Positions 375-7,623 of a stretch of 7,623 bases of DNA are shown in pieces. The position numbers were made by a program, and so were the translations under genes. The stretch is from Nitrospinota bacterium (GTDB taxonomy: Bacteria > Tectomicrobia > Entotheonellia > J063). Position 1 is the first letter of the stretch; each line of letters opens with the position of its first letter. The notes beneath the pieces were generated by a model, which worked only from the letters and a program-made list of their open reading frames with translations, made no database searches and was not told the DNA's origin. The DNA is taken from the NCBI GenBank assembly GCA_003696125.1, contig RFHZ01000782.1:1-7623 (forward strand). The letters are read 5' to 3'.

Positions 375-968
375 ATGAAGGTACAAGAGCAGTTTAATCC
401 GATGAGCGACCTCTTTGTCGCGCAGTTTGCCAAACCGACGCAATTTGAGGAGATCAATCTCCGTGCCCTAACCCCTTTCCAGCGGGCGCTACTCGTCATT
501 GATGGCACGGTGACCAAATTCATCGAGACCTATACGCTGGAGCCGATAGAGATTGTCCGTCTCGGACAGCATACCCAAGCCCTCTCTGCCGATCATGTAT
601 GGTTAGAGGCACCGCAGGGGACAGAGGTCGTTGCCCGGCAGGTGATCCTCCGGGGGAAGTACAGCTACATCCTCTATGCGTACGCCGTCTCTCTCATTGT
701 GCCGGCCCGTCTCCCGGACCAGATCAGGCAGGGACTGGAGGTAGAAGGGGGTGCACTGGGCCGTATCTTGCTCAGCGGGCAGATGGAGACTCGACGGGAA
801 GTCCTCTGGTACGGGAGGGAACGCCTCCATCCCCTGCCCGAACCGATTCAGCATCTGACAGATGGCGAGTTTCTCAGCCGTACCTATCGCATCATTGCCG
901 GTGGGCAGCCGCTCATGCTGATCAATGAGAAGTTTCCGATGGACCTGGACCGGCCGACTTTTGACTGA
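375..968 (+). CDS. Chorismate pyruvate-lyase-like protein (UbiC-like/DUF98 family)
   Basis: The predicted 197-residue soluble protein matches the chorismate lyase family, which cleaves chorismate to 4-hydroxybenzoate and pyruvate. Family signatures seen in order are LTPFQRALLVIDGTVTKFIE (32-51), an EPIEIVRLGQ strand (56-65), a VILRG segment with Arg93 (90-94), LGRILL (128-133), ETRRE (138-142) and the C-terminal LINEKFP with Glu185. In E. coli UbiC an Arg, a Leu and a C-terminal Glu contact the product, and equivalents are present. The length is nearer to the roughly 200-residue mycobacterial Rv2949c type, which feeds phenolic glycolipids, than to the 165-residue E. coli enzyme. ATG 375 is preceded by GGGAAAGG (361-368). 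The next gene is an acyl-adenylating ligase, suggesting the product is activated rather than sent to ubiquinone, though a quinone role cannot be excluded. No signal peptide or membrane segment is seen. Confidence 0.85.
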   Translation: MKVQEQFNPMSDLFVAQFAKPTQFEEINLRALTPFQRALLVIDGTVTKFIETYTLEPIEIVRLGQHTQALSADHVWLEAPQGTEVVARQVILRGKYSYILYAYAVSLIVPARLPDQIRQGLEVEGGALGRILLSGQMETRREVLWYGRERLHPLPEPIQHLTDGEFLSRTYRIIAGGQPLMLINEKFPMDLDRPTFD

Positions 969-985
969 TCCTGCTTTTCTACCCT

Positions 986-1003
986 CACCTGAAGCGGTGT
1001 TTT
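986..1003 (+). terminator. Short hairpin plus TTTT after the lyase gene
   Basis: CACC (986-989) pairs with GGTG (996-999) around TGAAGC and is followed by TTTT (1000-1003). The stem is only 4 bp, so any termination would be weak. The layout repeats that at 309-335: both have CACC, then AAGC, then GGTGTTTTC. This suggests two copies of one degenerate intergenic element rather than two independently evolved terminators. It lies 17 bases after the lyase stop codon. Confidence 0.2.
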
Positions 1004-1037
1004 CTGATGTAGATGGCCATTTTTGCTTTTTTAGCGA

Positions 1038-1054
1038 GCCCCTCTCCCAGGGGC
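1038..1054. repeat. GCCCCT/AGGGGC inverted repeat, intergenic
   Basis: GCCCCT (1038-1043) and AGGGGC (1049-1054) form a 6 bp perfect stem with a CTCCC loop. The surrounding CCCCTCTCCCAGGGGCGGGG string resembles the widespread short intergenic palindromes built on CCCCTCTCCC, known in many bacterial genomes. It also rules out reading 1013-1114 as the N-terminus of the ligase, because that translation (FLASPSPRGG) derives from the repeat. Confidence 0.45.
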
Positions 1055-1070
1055 GGGGAATTTGTGTTAA

Positions 1071-1097
1071 CCGGTACGGGTTGTAAGACCCGTCCGG
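1071..1097 (+). promoter_or_regulatory. Leader hairpin just upstream of the ligase ribosome-binding site
   Basis: ACGGGT (1076-1081) pairs exactly with ACCCGT (1088-1093) around a TGTAAG hexaloop. Flanking CCGG (1071-1074) and CCGG (1094-1097) extend it to a 10 bp stem with a single bulged T at 1075. It ends five bases before the AAGGAG ribosome-binding site (1103-1108), so it could affect translation or protect a processed 5' end. It might equally be another dispersed repeat, since ACGGGTTGTAA-type palindromes recur between genes in some genomes. The structure is clear on paper; the role is inferred. Confidence 0.4.
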
Positions 1098-1114
1098 AGA
1101 ATAAGGAGACCTTC

Positions 1115-2434
1115 ATGGCGGTTACTTACTTAGATCCGTTTATCGAGACCTTGGGCCGAGAGGCGCTGGCTCAGATACAACTGAAGAAGTTCCAGTTGAT
1201 GCTCGACTCTGTGCTCGAGACCAACGCCTTCTATCGGCAGAAATTTGCTCCGGCAGGGGTAAAGCAGGGGGGAGATGTGCAGACTCTTGCCGATTACCGG
1301 AAGCTCCCCTTTACCACCAAGGCAGAACTCTCCAATGACCAGATGTGCCATCCCCCGTACGGTACCAATCTCACCTTTTCTCGAGAGCGGTACACCCGCT
1401 TCCACCAGACCTCGGGTACCACCGGAGCCCCGCTCCGCTGGCTGGATACAGAGGAGAGCTGGTACTGGTGGGCCCGCTGCTGGGCAGCGGTCTACAAGGC
1501 GGCAGGGGTCACCCCCATGGATCGCATCTTCTTTGCCTTTTCCTTTGGTCCCTTTATCGGTTTTTGGAGCGCGCATGAGGGGGCGAGACTGGTCGGGGCC
1601 ATGTCGCTTCCCGGGGGAGGCATGTCCTCGTATCAGCGACTGAAGGCGATCCTGGAGAACGATATTACCGTGCTGGTCTGCACTCCTACCTATGCCCTGC
1701 ATCTGGCCGAGGTGGCGGAGCAGGAGGGGATCGATATCAGCCAGTCTTCGGTCCGTATCACCATCCATGCCGGGGAGCCGGGTGCCAGCCTGCAGGCGAC
1801 AAAACAGCGGATCGAGACGGCCTGGGGGGCACGCTGCTACGATCATGCCGGGGCGACCGAGGTGGGAGCCTGGGGTTTCGAGTGCCTGGCCCAGGATGGG
1901 CTACACCTGAACGAGGGGGAGTTCATCTGTGAGGTACTGGACCCGGACAGTGGAGAACCGGCCGGGGAGGGGGAGTTGATCATTACCAACCTGGGACGGG
2001 GTGGAATGCCGGTCATCCGCTACCGGACCGGTGATCGGGTAAGGCTCCAGACCGCTCCCTGCGAGTGTGGTCGTACCTTTTTCCGGCTCCAGGGTGGGGT
2101 GATCGGACGCATAGACGATGCCCTCATCATCCGGGGAGTGAATGTCTTTCCCAGTGCGGTGGAGAACATCGTCCGTCGCTTCCCCGAAGTGGGAGAGTTT
2201 GCGGTGGATGTCTATCGCCGCCGGACACTCGACGAGATGGAGATCCGGCTGGAGGTCAAGGGGGGGGAGACAGAGAGAGTCGCTGCGGCTGTAGGAAAAG
2301 AGATCCGCAACGGCCTGGGATTGCGCGTGCAGGTAAAACCGGTACCCTACGGGACCTTACCCCGCTTTGATCTGAAGGCAAAGCGTTTTACCGATCATCG
2401 TCGCATCAACGGCGTTGCTTCCGGTAGAGGCTAG
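1115..2434 (+). CDS. PaaK-like adenylate-forming acyl-CoA ligase (phenylacetate-CoA ligase family)
   Basis: The predicted 439-residue cytoplasmic protein would activate a carboxylic acid as acyl-AMP and probably acyl-CoA. Motifs in order: phosphate loop TSGTTG (99-104), DHAGATEVG (243-251), MPVIRYRTGD (298-307), hinge GRIDDALIIRGVNVFPSAVE (331-350), and C-terminal LKAKRF, where Lys421 is the probable catalytic lysine. Cys257, His264, Cys316 and Cys318 are arranged like the structural zinc site of some PaaK-type enzymes. ATG 1115 was chosen because AAGGAG lies 6 bases upstream and MAVTYLDPFIE begins the family-like region; a start at 1013 would add residues encoded by an intergenic repeat. The gene follows the chorismate-lyase-like gene, so 4-hydroxybenzoate is the leading substrate candidate. 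The aryl specificity cannot be read from sequence; phenylacetate, benzoate or another aryl acid are alternatives. Confidence 0.88.
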   Translation: MAVTYLDPFIETLGREALAQIQLKKFQLMLDSVLETNAFYRQKFAPAGVKQGGDVQTLADYRKLPFTTKAELSNDQMCHPPYGTNLTFSRERYTRFHQTSGTTGAPLRWLDTEESWYWWARCWAAVYKAAGVTPMDRIFFAFSFGPFIGFWSAHEGARLVGAMSLPGGGMSSYQRLKAILENDITVLVCTPTYALHLAEVAEQEGIDISQSSVRITIHAGEPGASLQATKQRIETAWGARCYDHAGATEVGAWGFECLAQDGLHLNEGEFICEVLDPDSGEPAGEGELIITNLGRGGMPVIRYRTGDRVRLQTAPCECGRTFFRLQGGVIGRIDDALIIRGVNVFPSAVENIVRRFPEVGEFAVDVYRRRTLDEMEIRLEVKGGETERVAAAVGKEIRNGLGLRVQVKPVPYGTLPRFDLKAKRFTDHRRINGVASGRG

Positions 2435-2490: not shown

Positions 2491-2498
2491 GTAGGATC

Positions 2499-4076
2499 AT
2501 AACAGATAACATTACAGTTGCCTGTATCGGTGCCGGGTACTGGGGAAAGCATCTCGTACGGAACTTCCACGACCTGGGAGTGCTGAGCCGGGTCTGTGAG
2601 GTGGATGAGGAGAGGTGTATCGATCTGGAGGCCAGATATCCCTCGCTCAGGGTCGATCGAGAGATCGATTCCCTTCTTGCTGACCCCACGGTGACCGGGG
2701 TGGCGATCGCCACCCCGGCCGAGACGCATGGGACTCTGGTACGGCGTGCCCTGCTGGCCGGTAAGGATGTCCTGGTAGAGAAACCGCTCTGTCTCGATCC
2801 TGAGGAAGGGGAACGACTCGTTTTACTTGCCGCCGAGAGAGGGTGCCTGCTCATGGTCGGGCATCTCCTCTGGTATCATCCGGCCATACGCCGGCTCAAG
2901 ACCCTGATCGAGAGGGGAGAGTTAGGGCGCATCCAGTACATCTACTCGAATCGCCTCAACCTGGGAAAGATCCGTCGCGAGGAGAACATCCTCTGGTCCT
3001 TTGCCCCGCATGATATCTCCCTCATCCTCGGCCTGGTCGGCGAGATGCCGGAGACGGTGGCTGCGCATGGGGGGAATTATCTGCACAACCGGATCGCCGA
3101 TGTTACCGTGAGTCTCCTCTCCTTTCCCAGCGGGATCAAGGCACATATCTTCGTCTCCTGGCTCCATCCCTTCAAAGAGCAGAAGCTGGTAGTGGTCGGG
3201 GAGCGGAAGATGGCGGTCTTTGACGATATGGAGTCGGAGCAGAAGCTCCTGCTCTATCCGCACACGATCCACTGGAAGCACCATGTACCGGTTGCCAGTA
3301 AGGCAGAGGCGCAGGTGGTACCCGTGGACCCGTGTGAACCTCTCCGGGAAGAGTGCCTCCACTTCCTTACCTGCCTCCGTACCCGGCAGACACCCCGGAC
3401 AGATGGACAGGAAGGGTTACGGGTACTGCGGGTGCTCCAGCGCTGTCAGGAGGCGCTGGAGGGGAAGACCACTCCCCTGGAAAAGCCGGCTCCCAGGCCA
3501 CAACGGGACTATTTTGTCCATGAGTCGGCCTTCATCGATGATGAGGTCGAAATCGGGAAAGGGACCACGATCTGGCACGTATCGCATGTATTGAAGAATT
3601 CCCGCATCGGGAAGAACTGTCGTATCGGGCAGAACGTGGTCATCGGTCCCCAGGTAACGATCGGCAACAACGTCAAGATCCAGAACAACGTCTCCGTGTA
3701 CGAAGGGGTGACCCTGGAAGACGACGTATTCTGCGGGCCGTCCATGGTCTTTACCAATGTCATCAATCCCCGTAGCGAAATACGGCGTATGGATGAGCTC
3801 CGCACGACCCTTGTACGACGAGGAGCCAGCCTGGGGGCGAACTGTACCATTGTGTGCGGGGTGACCATCGGAGAATACGCCTTTGTGGGAGCCGGGGCGG
3901 TGGTGACAAAAGATGTGCCTGCGTTTGCCCTGGTCGTGGGGAATCCTGGACGGATCGTCGGCTGGATGTGTGTCTGTGGGCACCGTATTCGTTTTCAAGC
4001 AGAGGAAGGAGAGGGTTCGTGTCCGGTATGCCAGCGGAAGTATCAGAAGAGCGGCCAGCAGGTCTCCCCAAGCTAA
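2499..4076 (+). CDS. Fused Gfo/Idh/MocA oxidoreductase and left-handed beta-helix acyltransferase, putative ATA start
   Basis: This 525-residue protein joins two enzymes of diacetamido-sugar synthesis. Residues 1 to about 330 are an NAD(P)-dependent oxidoreductase: Rossmann loop GAGYWGK (11-17), EKP with Lys95, and PHDISL (His171, Asp172) near the active site. WbpB/WlbA homologues oxidise C3 of UDP-GlcNAc uronic acid. Residues about 337-490 carry hexapeptide repeats ([20 protein letters not shown], then [14 protein letters not shown]) like acetyltransferases WbpD/WlbB. A tail with Cys491, Cys493, Cys508 and Cys511 resembles a zinc ribbon. The aminotransferase for the intermediate step is next. 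GTG 2580 would delete the Rossmann loop, so translation must begin upstream. ATA 2499, 8 bases after AAGGAGG, gives a typical (M)[15 protein letters not shown] start; ATC 2496 is the alternative, and a sequencing error or mutation of ATG is possible. The domain calls are firm; the exact sugar is inferred. Confidence 0.88.
4006..4011 (+). promoter_or_regulatory. Ribosome-binding site for the aminotransferase, inside the fusion gene
   Basis: AAGGAG at 4006-4011 lies inside the 3' end of the fusion gene. It is 7 bases before GTG 4019 and 16 bases before ATG 4028, both in the aminotransferase frame. The spacing favours GTG 4019. The position implies translational coupling, with ribosomes finishing the fusion protein passing over the start. 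Confidence 0.55.
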
Positions 4077-5182
4077 GGGTACCCTTGCTGGACCTCAAAG
4101 CGCAGTACAGGGGGATTCAGGATGAGATTCGTGCCGCCATCGAGCGGGTCTGTGCCTCGCAACGCTTCATTCTCGGTCCCGAGGTAGAGGCCCTGGAGGA
4201 AGCCATTGCCACGTTCTGTGGGGTCCCCTACGCCATCGGCATGTCTTCGGGTACCGATGCCCTCCTCGCCGCACTCATGGCCCTCGACATCGGTCCAGGG
4301 GATGAGGTGATCACCACGCCGTACACCTTCTTTGCCACGGCAGGAGTCATCGTGCGGGTAGGGGCGCGACCGGTCTTTGTAGACATCCATCCCCGCACCT
4401 TTCACCTGGACCTCGAGGCGGTAAAGGCACGGATAACCCCTCGCACCAGAGCCATCATCCCGGTTCACCTCTTTGGTCGCTGCGTCGAACTCGATCCGAT
4501 CCGTCACCTCACGGAAGAGCGAGGGATCTGGATCGTGGAAGACGCGGCCCAGGCCATTGGAGCCTGTGATGAGGAGGGGAGACAGGCTGGGACCATCGGT
4601 CATCTGGGAACCCTCTCCTTCTTCCCCAGCAAAAACCTGGGTGCCTTTGGGGATGGAGGCATGGTGGTCACCGCGGATCAGCGCCTTGCCGAGAAGCTCC
4701 GGACGCTACGTGTTCACGGCAGCAAGCCGAAGTATTACCATCGGATGGTGGGAGGGAATTTCCGTTTAGATGCCCTGCAGGCAGCCATCTTGCGGGTGAA
4801 GTTACCTTATCTCGCTTCCTGGACGGCAGCCCGTCGGGCAAATGCCCGGCGCTACCGGCTCCTGTTTGGTGAAATGGATCGGTTAGGGAAGGTTACCCTC
4901 CCGGAGGATACCCCTGGGCATATTTACAACCAGTTTGTTATTCGCGTACCGCAACGTGATAATCTACGAGCCTTCCTGAAAGCCCGGGGAGTAGAGAGTG
5001 AAGTCTACTATCCTCTCCCCCTCCATCTCCAGGAATGTTTTCAGGGGCTGGGATACCGGCAGGGAGATTTTCCCCAGGCCGAAGCGGCCGCTGTCGAGAC
5101 CCTGGCTTTACCCATCTATCCTGAATTGAGCGAGGAACAGCAACGGTATGTCGTCCACCAGATCCGGGAATTCTATGCCTGA
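4019..5182 (+). CDS. DegT/DnrJ/EryC1-family PLP-dependent sugar aminotransferase
   Basis: The predicted 387-residue enzyme transfers an amino group to a keto sugar nucleotide using pyridoxal phosphate. Signatures: N-terminal [10 protein letters not shown] (21-30), [11 protein letters not shown] (76-86), [12 protein letters not shown] (96-107), EDAAQAIGA with Asp175 facing the PLP nitrogen (174-182), and [15 protein letters not shown] with Lys205 as the Schiff-base lysine. It closely fits WbpE/WlbC-type 3-aminotransferases, which act on the 3-keto product of the oxidoreductase encoded just upstream. The acceptor amine would then be acetylated by the second half of that fusion. GTG 4019 is preferred by Shine-Dalgarno spacing; ATG 4028 would shorten the protein by three residues. 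The gene overlaps the fusion gene by 58 bases in another frame, and its stop overlaps the next start by 8 bases. Exact substrate is inferred; a 4-keto or 3-keto deoxysugar is the main alternative. Confidence 0.92.
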
Positions 5183-6470
5183 TACTCCAGGGAATAAACT
5201 CCTCTTTTTGGCCTACCCTTTTCCCCCGGCCAATATTACCGCTGCCGTGCGTACCTGGAACATGGCCAGGTACCTGGGGCGATTGGGCTGGGAGGTGACG
5301 GTGGTGACCCTGCATCCATCCATCTGGCGTCAGGTTGAGCAGCCGGAGAGGATGGGCGAACGTCTTCAAAAGGAAGGGATTCGCCTCATCCTGACCGATC
5401 ATCGCTGGCGGTGTCTCTCCCCTGACCATCTCCGATGCTGGAACCGGGGACCGGGATGGCTGGCCGGGGGAATCTGTCGCCGGATAACCCGGCACTTAGG
5501 GATCGATCGGGGGATTGGTTGGGTGAAACCGGTGGAACAGGCCTGTGCGGCTTTGACTCCTGAGGATGTCGATGTCCTTTTAGCCACCGGTTCCCCGTTT
5601 GCAGCCTTTACCGTTGCCAGGCGCCTGTCAGAGAGGCTCGCCTGCCCTTACATATTGGACTATCGCGATCCCTGGACCGGTAACCCGCACGTAACGCGTT
5701 CTTCTTCTCCTCATATCTTCCGCAAAGAGGCCCGGCTCCTGGCAGAGAGTGCAGCCGTAACCATCGTCTCTGCGTCCTGGGGAGAGGCCATGGACCGGCG
5801 TTTTGGTTTAGGTTCAAAGCTCCATGTGATCAGTAACGGCTATGATCCAGAAGACCTGGCTGCTGTGGTTCCGAAGGAGTTTGATCACTTTGCCATCGTC
5901 TACACCGGGAACTTCTATCCACCCAAGCGAGTCATCTCTCCGCTCATGGCGGTACTCGATCGGCTAAAAATCCATCCCTCAGTGCAGGATATCCCCTGGT
6001 TTTTCCACTACTATGGAGGACAGGAAGCCCATGTGCGGGCAGAAGCGGAACGGTTCGGGGTGATGGACAGGGTCGTGTGTCATGGCAGGGTACCACGTGC
6101 TGAAGCCCTTTCTGCCGTGCGCGGGGCGCATGTTGCCGTTGTCATCACCTCGGTTGCCGCAGAGGCGACGATGGAAGAGAGAGGTATTGTGACCGGCAAG
6201 GTCTTTGAAGCATTGGGGCTGGGAACGCCTGTACTGCTGATTGCGCCCAGGGAGAGTGATGCCAGGGTGGTCATCGATACGGCCGGATCAGGAGGATGTT
6301 TTACCGGCACAGACCTGCAAGGTATGGAGTCGTTTCTGCTCCGGATGATGACAGGCTGGAGACCCCAGCCAGCAGATAGAGAGCGATTCGCCTGGCCCGG
6401 TCTCGCCTCCCGCCTGGATCAGATCTTGCGTCACGCCATAGCGGGGAATGAGATGGCAGGCATTTCTTAA
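5175..6470 (+). CDS. Glycosyltransferase, GT4-like (GT-B fold)
   Basis: The predicted 431-residue protein has the two Rossmann-like halves of a retaining GT-B glycosyltransferase. The N-terminal half opens with [11 protein letters not shown] (8-18) and has [17 protein letters not shown]-like features around 31-46 and DYRDPW at 162-167. The C-terminal half has ISNGYDP (219-225), [12 protein letters not shown] (241-252) and [12 protein letters not shown] (341-352), the usual donor-binding region. It has no signal peptide or clear membrane helix, so it probably acts at the cytoplasmic face on a lipid-linked acceptor. ATG 5175 overlaps the aminotransferase stop by 8 bases; ATG 5148 is possible but adds nine residues with no family match. 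Position suggests transfer of the diacetamido sugar or a neighbour in the same glycan. Donor and linkage cannot be read from the sequence. Confidence 0.88.
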
Positions 6471-6481
6471 AAGAGGGGATG

Positions 6482-7623
6482 ATGCGAACCTATTCCACCA
6501 TACGAGCCGCCGGCTGGTTCTTCACCGGCTATCCGGCCACAAGGTATGCCCGCCTGCTCCAGAGGGCAGAACAGTGGTCCAGGGTAGAGCTGGAAGAGTA
6601 TCGAAACGCAAAGATACGAGACCTCATCACGCACTGTTACGACAACGTACCGTACTACAGACGGGTCATGGAGGAACGAAAACTCCTCCCGCAGGATATA
6701 CAGAGAGCCGAAGACCTGGCCAGACTCCCCATCTTGACCAAGAGGGTTATCCAGGACACGCCGGACGATTTGTTGGCCCGCAATGTGGCAAGTAGGCGTG
6801 TTTCCTGGTCCAAGACCGGTGGGACCACCGGGCAGCCGACACGGGTCTGCAAGAATATCGAGTGTATCGCCTGGGAGAGCATGTGTCATGAACGGGGGCT
6901 ACGGTGGGGTGGTCTGGGACCGGATGAACCGAGGATACGGCTCTTTGGGGGCTCTCTGGGCATCAACCGTACCCGGTGGACCACGCGGCTACGGGACCTG
7001 TTTTTGCGACGCGATCTCTTCTTGCCGGCTTTTGAACTGCGTACCGATACGGTAGCCGCCTATGGCGAGAAGATTCGTCGCTCAAAATACCGTTTCCTGG
7101 TAGGGTATGCTTCGGCCATCTACCGGCTGGCCGTGCTGGCCGAGGAGATGCATCAACCCCTGACCTTTGATGCTGTCTTTCCCACGGCCGAGTTGCTCCT
7201 TCCCGAATGGGCCGAGGTGATTCGCACCGCCTTCAAGTGTGCCGTGCTCCCCTACTACGGTTGTGGGGAGGTGAACTCCTTAGGATACTCGATCCCGGGG
7301 AGCAGGGGGTACCTGATCCCAGAAGAACACGTCCTGATCGAGATCATGCATCCTGACGGATCGACACAGGGTGGCGGGGAAGGCCAGTTTCTCATTACCG
7401 ATCTCGATAACTACGCCATGCCGGTTATCCGCTATGCCAATGGCGATGCAGGACAGATCGGTTATCAACCACAAGGACCCTTCCCCTTTACCCGGATTGA
7501 GAGGCTGGATGGGCGGTATAACAGCTTTCTGATGACCGATACCGGAGAGCTGATCTCCGGGGTCATCGGCACGCATGTCTTTCGTAACCTCCCCTCGGTC
7601 AAAAGTTATCGCATCATACAAGA
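6482..7623 (+). CDS. CapK/PaaK-like adenylate-forming protein, 3' end missing
   Basis: An open frame from ATG 6482 runs for 380 codons to the window edge with no stop. It belongs to the adenylate-forming superfamily in the branch named CapK, common in capsule and O-antigen loci and of uncertain function. Seen in order: NVPYYR (55-60), LPILTK (82-87), phosphate loop SKTGGTTGQPTR (110-121), LPYYGCGEVNSLG (256-268), ITDLDNYAMPVIRYANGDAG (305-324) and LDGRYNSFL (342-350). Compared with the first ligase, the phosphate loop reads TGGTTG, the GRxDD hinge is changed to GRYNS, and the C-x-C metal ligands are missing. Preferred start ATG 6482 has AGAGG 5 bases upstream; ATG 6479 is adjacent to that site and less likely. 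It begins 11 bases after the glycosyltransferase stop. A role in adding an acyl group to the glycan is possible; inactivity as an enzyme is also possible. Confidence 0.88.
   Translation, partial: MRTYSTIRAAGWFFTGYPATRYARLLQRAEQWSRVELEEYRNAKIRDLITHCYDNVPYYRRVMEERKLLPQDIQRAEDLARLPILTKRVIQDTPDDLLARNVASRRVSWSKTGGTTGQPTRVCKNIECIAWESMCHERGLRWGGLGPDEPRIRLFGGSLGINRTRWTTRLRDLFLRRDLFLPAFELRTDTVAAYGEKIRRSKYRFLVGYASAIYRLAVLAEEMHQPLTFDAVFPTAELLLPEWAEVIRTAFKCAVLPYYGCGEVNSLGYSIPGSRGYLIPEEHVLIEIMHPDGSTQGGGEGQFLITDLDNYAMPVIRYANGDAGQIGYQPQGPFPFTRIERLDGRYNSFLMTDTGELISGVIGTHVFRNLPSVKSYRIIQ

Follow-up and report, generated by a model that had tools for sequence, protein, structure and literature searches.

The mycobacterial pathway of Rv2949c, which leads to phenolic glycolipids and p-hydroxybenzoic acid derivatives, follows a general logic in which a chorismate lyase of the family PF01947 is succeeded by adenylation and elaboration. 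In mycobacteria, activation is by FadD22, an enzyme that differs in type from PaaK and feeds a polyketide synthase. In clusters for xanthomonadin and arcuflavin, the chorismate-consuming enzyme XanB2/ArcB makes hydroxybenzoates and is clustered with the AMP-ligase ArcT, and a halogenase gene, arcA, belongs to a cluster of this type (PMC3949708). The bmp-type clusters for brominated phenols comprise four genes, among them a cytochrome P450, and combine a chorismate lyase with a flavin-dependent halogenase that acts on 4-hydroxybenzoate (PMC10579414).

Here, we describe a pair of genes for a predicted chorismate lyase and a predicted PaaK-type ligase, located in a 7,623-base stretch of DNA (hereafter, the window). 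The pair shares the lyase family and the general logic of the mycobacterial pathway, but its ligase is PaaK-type, and we saw no gene for a polyketide synthase, either in the window or in the loci that we read. The principle of the XanB2/ArcT clusters, a chorismate-consuming enzyme feeding an AMP-ligase, would be the same as well; XanB2, however, is a chorismatase of another family, and we noticed no genes for an aryl-polyene synthase in these loci. The bmp-type clusters resemble, in their combination of lyase and halogenase, an extended locus that surrounds the ligase in relatives. Nevertheless, the four-gene bmp cluster has no described ligase and uses a cytochrome P450, whereas the pair in the window adjoins neither a halogenase nor a P450. 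The ligase itself belongs to the same PaaK-like family as NatL2, BagE/FevW, ClxA, and FlxY, several of which act on hydroxy- or aminohydroxybenzoates. Its identity to this wider family is about 22 to 33% in structural matches, and its scores do not come near the cut-offs of the NCBIfam models for PaaK, FlxY, and BagE (for FlxY, 177 versus 520 bits).

We consider it likely that the two genes are a self-contained module for making and activating 4-hydroxybenzoate, which reached the genome in one piece and came to lie upstream of an ordinary amino-sugar operon. In such a module, the lyase would split chorismate into pyruvate and 4-hydroxybenzoate, and the ligase would adenylate 4-hydroxybenzoate with ATP and then pass the acid to a thiol, most likely that of coenzyme A (CoA).

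The window and its genes

The window is the entire contig C174 of a 4.18-Mb draft genome (G000) in 990 contigs, which is 95% complete and has 8% contamination. Because the tetranucleotide profile of the window matches that of its own genome (r = 0.907, inside the range of the genome's other contigs), a binning artifact was rejected within the limits of this test. Six genes, all on the plus strand, are found in the window:

375..968, plus strand: predicted chorismate lyase of the Rv2949c/AF1396 type, 197 aa (PF01947; AF1396/UbiC fold; invariant R88, G129, and E185)
1115..2434, plus strand: predicted PaaK-fold aryl-acid adenylating/CoA ligase, 439 aa (PF14535; PaaK/BT_0428 fold; catalytic Lys)
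about 2496..4076, plus strand: Gfo/Idh oxidoreductase fused to a WlbB-type hexapeptide acetyltransferase; a neighbor outside the module, with an uncertain start codon
4028..5182, plus strand: DegT/WbpE-type nucleotide-sugar aminotransferase, a neighbor (PF01041, E = 3e-117; WbpE, E = 2e-83)
5148..6470, plus strand: GT4-type glycosyltransferase, a neighbor (PF13439, E = 1.4e-11)
6479..7623, plus strand: second, distant PaaK/CapK-like adenylating gene, cut by the contig end (NF045666, E = 1.3e-30, below the cut-off)

The first-pass annotation of this DNA had described a lyase and a ligase followed by sugar genes, and profile and fold matches bear out this layout. The families that it gave to the downstream genes also hold; the oxidoreductase and the acetyltransferase, which it had listed as two genes, are a single fused gene. 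The PaaK/CapK-like gene at 6479-7623, which closes the sugar operon and was absent from that annotation, is 25% identical to the ligase at 1115-2434.

Two features of the nucleotide sequence are recorded here. No ATG, GTG, or TTG occurs where the fused gene is expected to start (2442-2580), and a GGAGG-like site near 2486 is trailed only by ATC or ATA; either an unusual start codon or a sequence error is possible. Upstream of the lyase, at 234-310, there is a tandem repeat of 7 and 21 bases (TTACTCA-like), and TTACTCA-like short strings are also present in one other sampled contig of the same genome (L081).

Predicted activities of the lyase and the ligase

The product of the gene at 375-968 is best read as a chorismate lyase, and very probably is one, judging from family profile, predicted fold, and conserved residues. 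It matches PF01947 with 60.1 bits (E = 3e-16), well over the cut-off of 22 bits. The best structural match of its predicted model (mean pLDDT, 79) is Archaeoglobus fulgidus AF1396 (2nwi; E = 9e-11). Escherichia coli UbiC (1g1b) is matched at E = 6e-5, and GntR-type UTRA domains are found at similar, weaker scores. Since UTRA effector domains have this fold in common with the lyases, the fold by itself is no proof of lyase activity. Residues R88, G129, and E185 are invariant across six divergent homologs, and two of them, R88 and E185, align with AF1396; from comparison by eye, Arg88 and Glu185 may be the counterparts of the product-binding residues R76 and E155 of UbiC. The score against the NCBIfam model of cyanobacterial chorismate lyase (NF037993) is below the cut-off (27.4 versus 175 bits). 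A search of viral contigs and plasmids returned no relatives.

The open reading frame of the ligase opens at 1013, but its homologs start no earlier than the Met at 1115, and the gene therefore most likely spans 1115-2434. The encoded protein carries an AMP-binding_C_2 domain (PF14535; E = 2.9e-19), and the closest folds to its predicted model (mean pLDDT, 76) are BT_0428 and PaaK1/2 (for PaaK1, 2y27, E = 5e-37). PaaK-type enzymes have been distinguished by a C-terminal catalytic Lys and by having no closing C-terminal extension, such as the one that blocks CoA in NatL2 (PMC7204872). In the ligase of the window, the Lys that is the counterpart of PaaK1 K422 is invariant (alignment position 421 of the first row), and a NatL2-like C-terminal extension is absent. 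We rejected an assignment as the phenylacetate-CoA ligase PaaK at the equivalog level, because the score is far below the TIGR02155 cut-off (243 versus 646 bits). With this score and an identity to PaaK of only about 30%, specificity for phenylacetate is not implied. The best reading is that 1115-2434 very probably encodes an aryl-CoA ligase. Its partnership with the lyase points to 4-hydroxybenzoate as the substrate, and CoA is the most likely thiol acceptor.

Lyase and ligase form a conserved module

The two genes lie side by side on the same strand in six genomes, including that of the window (G000, G041, G271, G475, G476, and G477). The frames of the lyase and the ligase overlap by 8, 20, 20, and 4 bases in G271, G475, G476, and G477, respectively; in the window, they do not overlap and are separated by 146 bases. 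In seven further genomes, a copy of the lyase gene lies no more than about 2.2 kb from the ligase, in opposite orientation. Of the same-strand pairs, the one closest to that of the window (63% and 70% identity) is found in a KSB1 genome (L004).

Beyond adjacency, the presence of one gene is associated with the presence of the other. In the phylum of genome G403, 65 of 84 genomes carry both genes and 10 carry neither, while 3 have only the lyase (present in 68 overall) and 6 only the ligase (present in 71 overall) (Fisher's exact test, P = 7e-7, kinship ignored). Several of these lyase-only and ligase-only genomes are incomplete drafts. A wider sample added three genomes, G403, G126, and G271, in which the lyase is strongly matched and the same ligase clade is present; the two genes are adjacent in G271 and on separate contigs in G403 and G126. 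The reverse search gave the same picture: ligase matches of at least 785 bits were found in exactly G000, G403, G126, and G271, every one of which has the lyase, and the next best match scored 644 bits.

The lyase and this clade of ligases are a conserved module. Their adjacency, overlapping frames, co-occurrence, and matching trees (see below) show that the two genes belong together, as the first-pass annotation had supposed, and fit the logic of making and activating 4-hydroxybenzoate. The substrates of the wider ligase family may include other acids, since six genomes hold the ligase without a detected lyase, and since genome G001, with a related ligase and a flavoprotein, gave no match to the lyase.

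An extended locus surrounds the ligase in several relatives

In several genomes, the ligase adjoins a flavoprotein with halogenase-type motifs. The GxGxxG, WxWxIP, and FxDPxYSxG-type motifs and a conserved Lys are present in all nine flavoproteins of relatives that were checked, one of which has F for Y in the third motif, and the flavoprotein of relatives matches PF04820 at an E value of about 1e-26. The vicinity of the ligase also holds varying subsets of a HemN-like radical SAM enzyme, an iron-type alcohol dehydrogenase, an aldehyde dehydrogenase, a short AMP-binding enzyme, beta-propellers, a TonB receptor, a sodium symporter, a 4HBT_2 thioesterase, and an FtsX permease. A GT4 glycosyltransferase near the ligase in relatives is of another kind than the GT4 of the window. 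For the short AMP-binding enzyme, the name LuxE-like was considered and rejected, as its Pfam assignment is AMP-binding only.

The locus recurs around the ligase or its relatives in L030, L074, L075, L132, L192, L193, L195, L202, and L207. The case of L132 (genome G230) combines many locus members with a more distant ligase, and the surroundings of the ligase in G484 and G489 held none of these partners. A related ligase lies directly beside a halogenase-type flavoprotein in G001 (L077 and L198), a class relative of the window's genome. In the window's genome itself, searches for homologs of the flavoprotein and the radical SAM enzyme gave only weak or generic family matches.

Judging by their families and motifs, the halogenase-type flavoprotein of relatives may act after the ligase, and the thioesterase may release the product. 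Among the papers listed by searches of the open-licence literature on 4-hydroxybenzoyl, halogenase, and radical SAM loci, and on chorismate or halogenases in Poribacteria, of which the gene content of G403's phylum is reminiscent, there was no matching locus; the extended 4-hydroxybenzoate locus is apparently undescribed. It is quite possible, although short of probable, that the lyase and the ligase perform the opening steps of a biosynthetic locus, as yet undescribed, that is widespread in one phylum. Starting from chorismate, such a locus would yield a modified 4-hydroxybenzoyl compound, perhaps bearing halogen and sugar, for the TonB receptor and transporters to handle; a metallophore, a pigment, or a redox cofactor would be examples, and the organism of the window would hold a laterally acquired piece of the locus.

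The pair was probably acquired laterally as a unit

In maximum-likelihood trees of both proteins, the sequences from the window and from the KSB1 genome are sisters (support, 99/95 for the ligase and 99/99 for the lyase). In the ligase tree, the two are nested inside the clade of G403's phylum (99/96); the lyase tree supports the same nesting weakly. No lyase was found in four genomes of the same class as that of the window. In the KSB1 phylum, 3 of 82 sampled genomes gave a lyase match, one of the three being in a broken frame and another weak. The broken frame is that of genome G067 (L031, 9149-10934), where the adjacent gene, as read by eye, presumably encodes a DAHP synthase of type II; a search for this ligase in the G067 genome gave no match.

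The sister placement in both trees, together with the nesting in G403's phylum, suggests that the two genes probably traveled together. The simplest reading of the trees is joint lateral transfer, probably from G403's phylum, by which the pair would have entered the genome of the window and a KSB1 genome as one unit.

The module may instead be a vestige in the genome of the window, either acquired with a larger locus or left from one, and now without a dedicated downstream pathway. Such an explanation would fit the failure to find the flavoprotein and the HemN-like radical SAM enzyme in a genome that is about 95% complete, and decay has occurred elsewhere, as the broken lyase frame and the missing ligase match of G067 indicate. 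However, both frames in the window are intact with their key residues kept, and the KSB1 copy of the pair is also intact, from which selection seems to persist. We regard a vestige as unlikely.

The sugar genes are probably accidental neighbors

The genes downstream of the ligase carry the dehydrogenase, aminotransferase, and acetyltransferase steps of the WlbA/WlbB/WbpE diacetamido-sugar pathway. The aminotransferase at 4028-5182 matches WbpE (3nu7), among others, at E = 2e-83. Unlike in the described pathway, the dehydrogenase and the acetyltransferase are fused here, and the WbpA-type UDP-GlcNAc 6-dehydrogenase step is absent from the window. About 60 bases separate the stop codon of the ligase from the expected start of the sugar operon on the same strand, and no clear terminator is seen between them; co-transcription of the pair and the sugar genes is thus possible.

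The first-pass annotation had gone further and proposed that the diacetamido sugar or glycan made by these genes receives the activated 4-hydroxybenzoate, giving an aryl-capped or aryl-started surface glycan. Besides the shared strand and the short interval, a second PaaK/CapK-like gene within the same run favors this proposal, and the fused hexapeptide domain, an N-acyltransferase of the WlbB type, could in principle be the missing transferase. In addition, the activated acid would need some other use in the window's genome, where searches for the halogenase-type and radical SAM partners did not find them. Yet the hexapeptide half of the fused gene is closest to a WlbB-type acetyltransferase, that of Bordetella petrii (3mqg; E = 4e-65), and the gene trees show the pair traveling without the sugar genes. 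Moreover, queries with WlbB, the aminotransferase, and the GT4 found no homolog at E = 1e-5 in 32 related loci (522 kb), and a WlbA-type query retrieved only three weak Gfo/Idh matches (24 to 26% identity) from the same loci. The close relatives G482, G483, and G484 have no such sugar genes either, and the KSB1 pair is flanked by what we take, by eye, to be a BamA-like gene and a citrate synthase gene. A conserved neighborhood with wlb/wbp-type genes, on which the proposal had been made to depend, is absent in the relatives that we read. We rejected the aryl-capped glycan as unsupported and consider it improbable, also as an association private to this organism; the adjacency to the sugar genes in the window is probably an accident, as their absence from the related loci suggests.

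Least probable of all is a route in which the free 4-hydroxybenzoate released by the lyase goes into a ubiquinone-type quinone and the ligase is an unrelated neighbor. UbiC-like chorismate lyases do serve ubiquinone synthesis, UbiA-family prenyltransferase genes were present in 5 of 5 genomes tested, and the Halochromatium lyase (L005), which has no ligase beside it, may have a quinone role there. However, a free-acid pathway would leave the lyase-ligase adjacency, the frame overlap, the co-occurrence, and the matching trees unexplained, and UbiA-family genes are also found in 14 of 14 control genomes, so that their presence is uninformative and lends quinone supply no specific support.

Significance of the module and the wider locus

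A better finding than the glycan is the conserved lyase-ligase module together with the wider locus in relatives. The initial guess of an aryl-capped glycan is replaced by a pair of genes that co-occurs and appears to move across phyla. Because the pair is near-universal among the 84 genomes of G403's phylum, we suggest that its function there is basic rather than occasional. The pair also points to a conserved 4-hydroxybenzoate locus, apparently undescribed, that includes halogenase-type and radical SAM enzymes. This locus occurs in a phylum that has been little studied, and its product could be a new pigment, metallophore, or cofactor.
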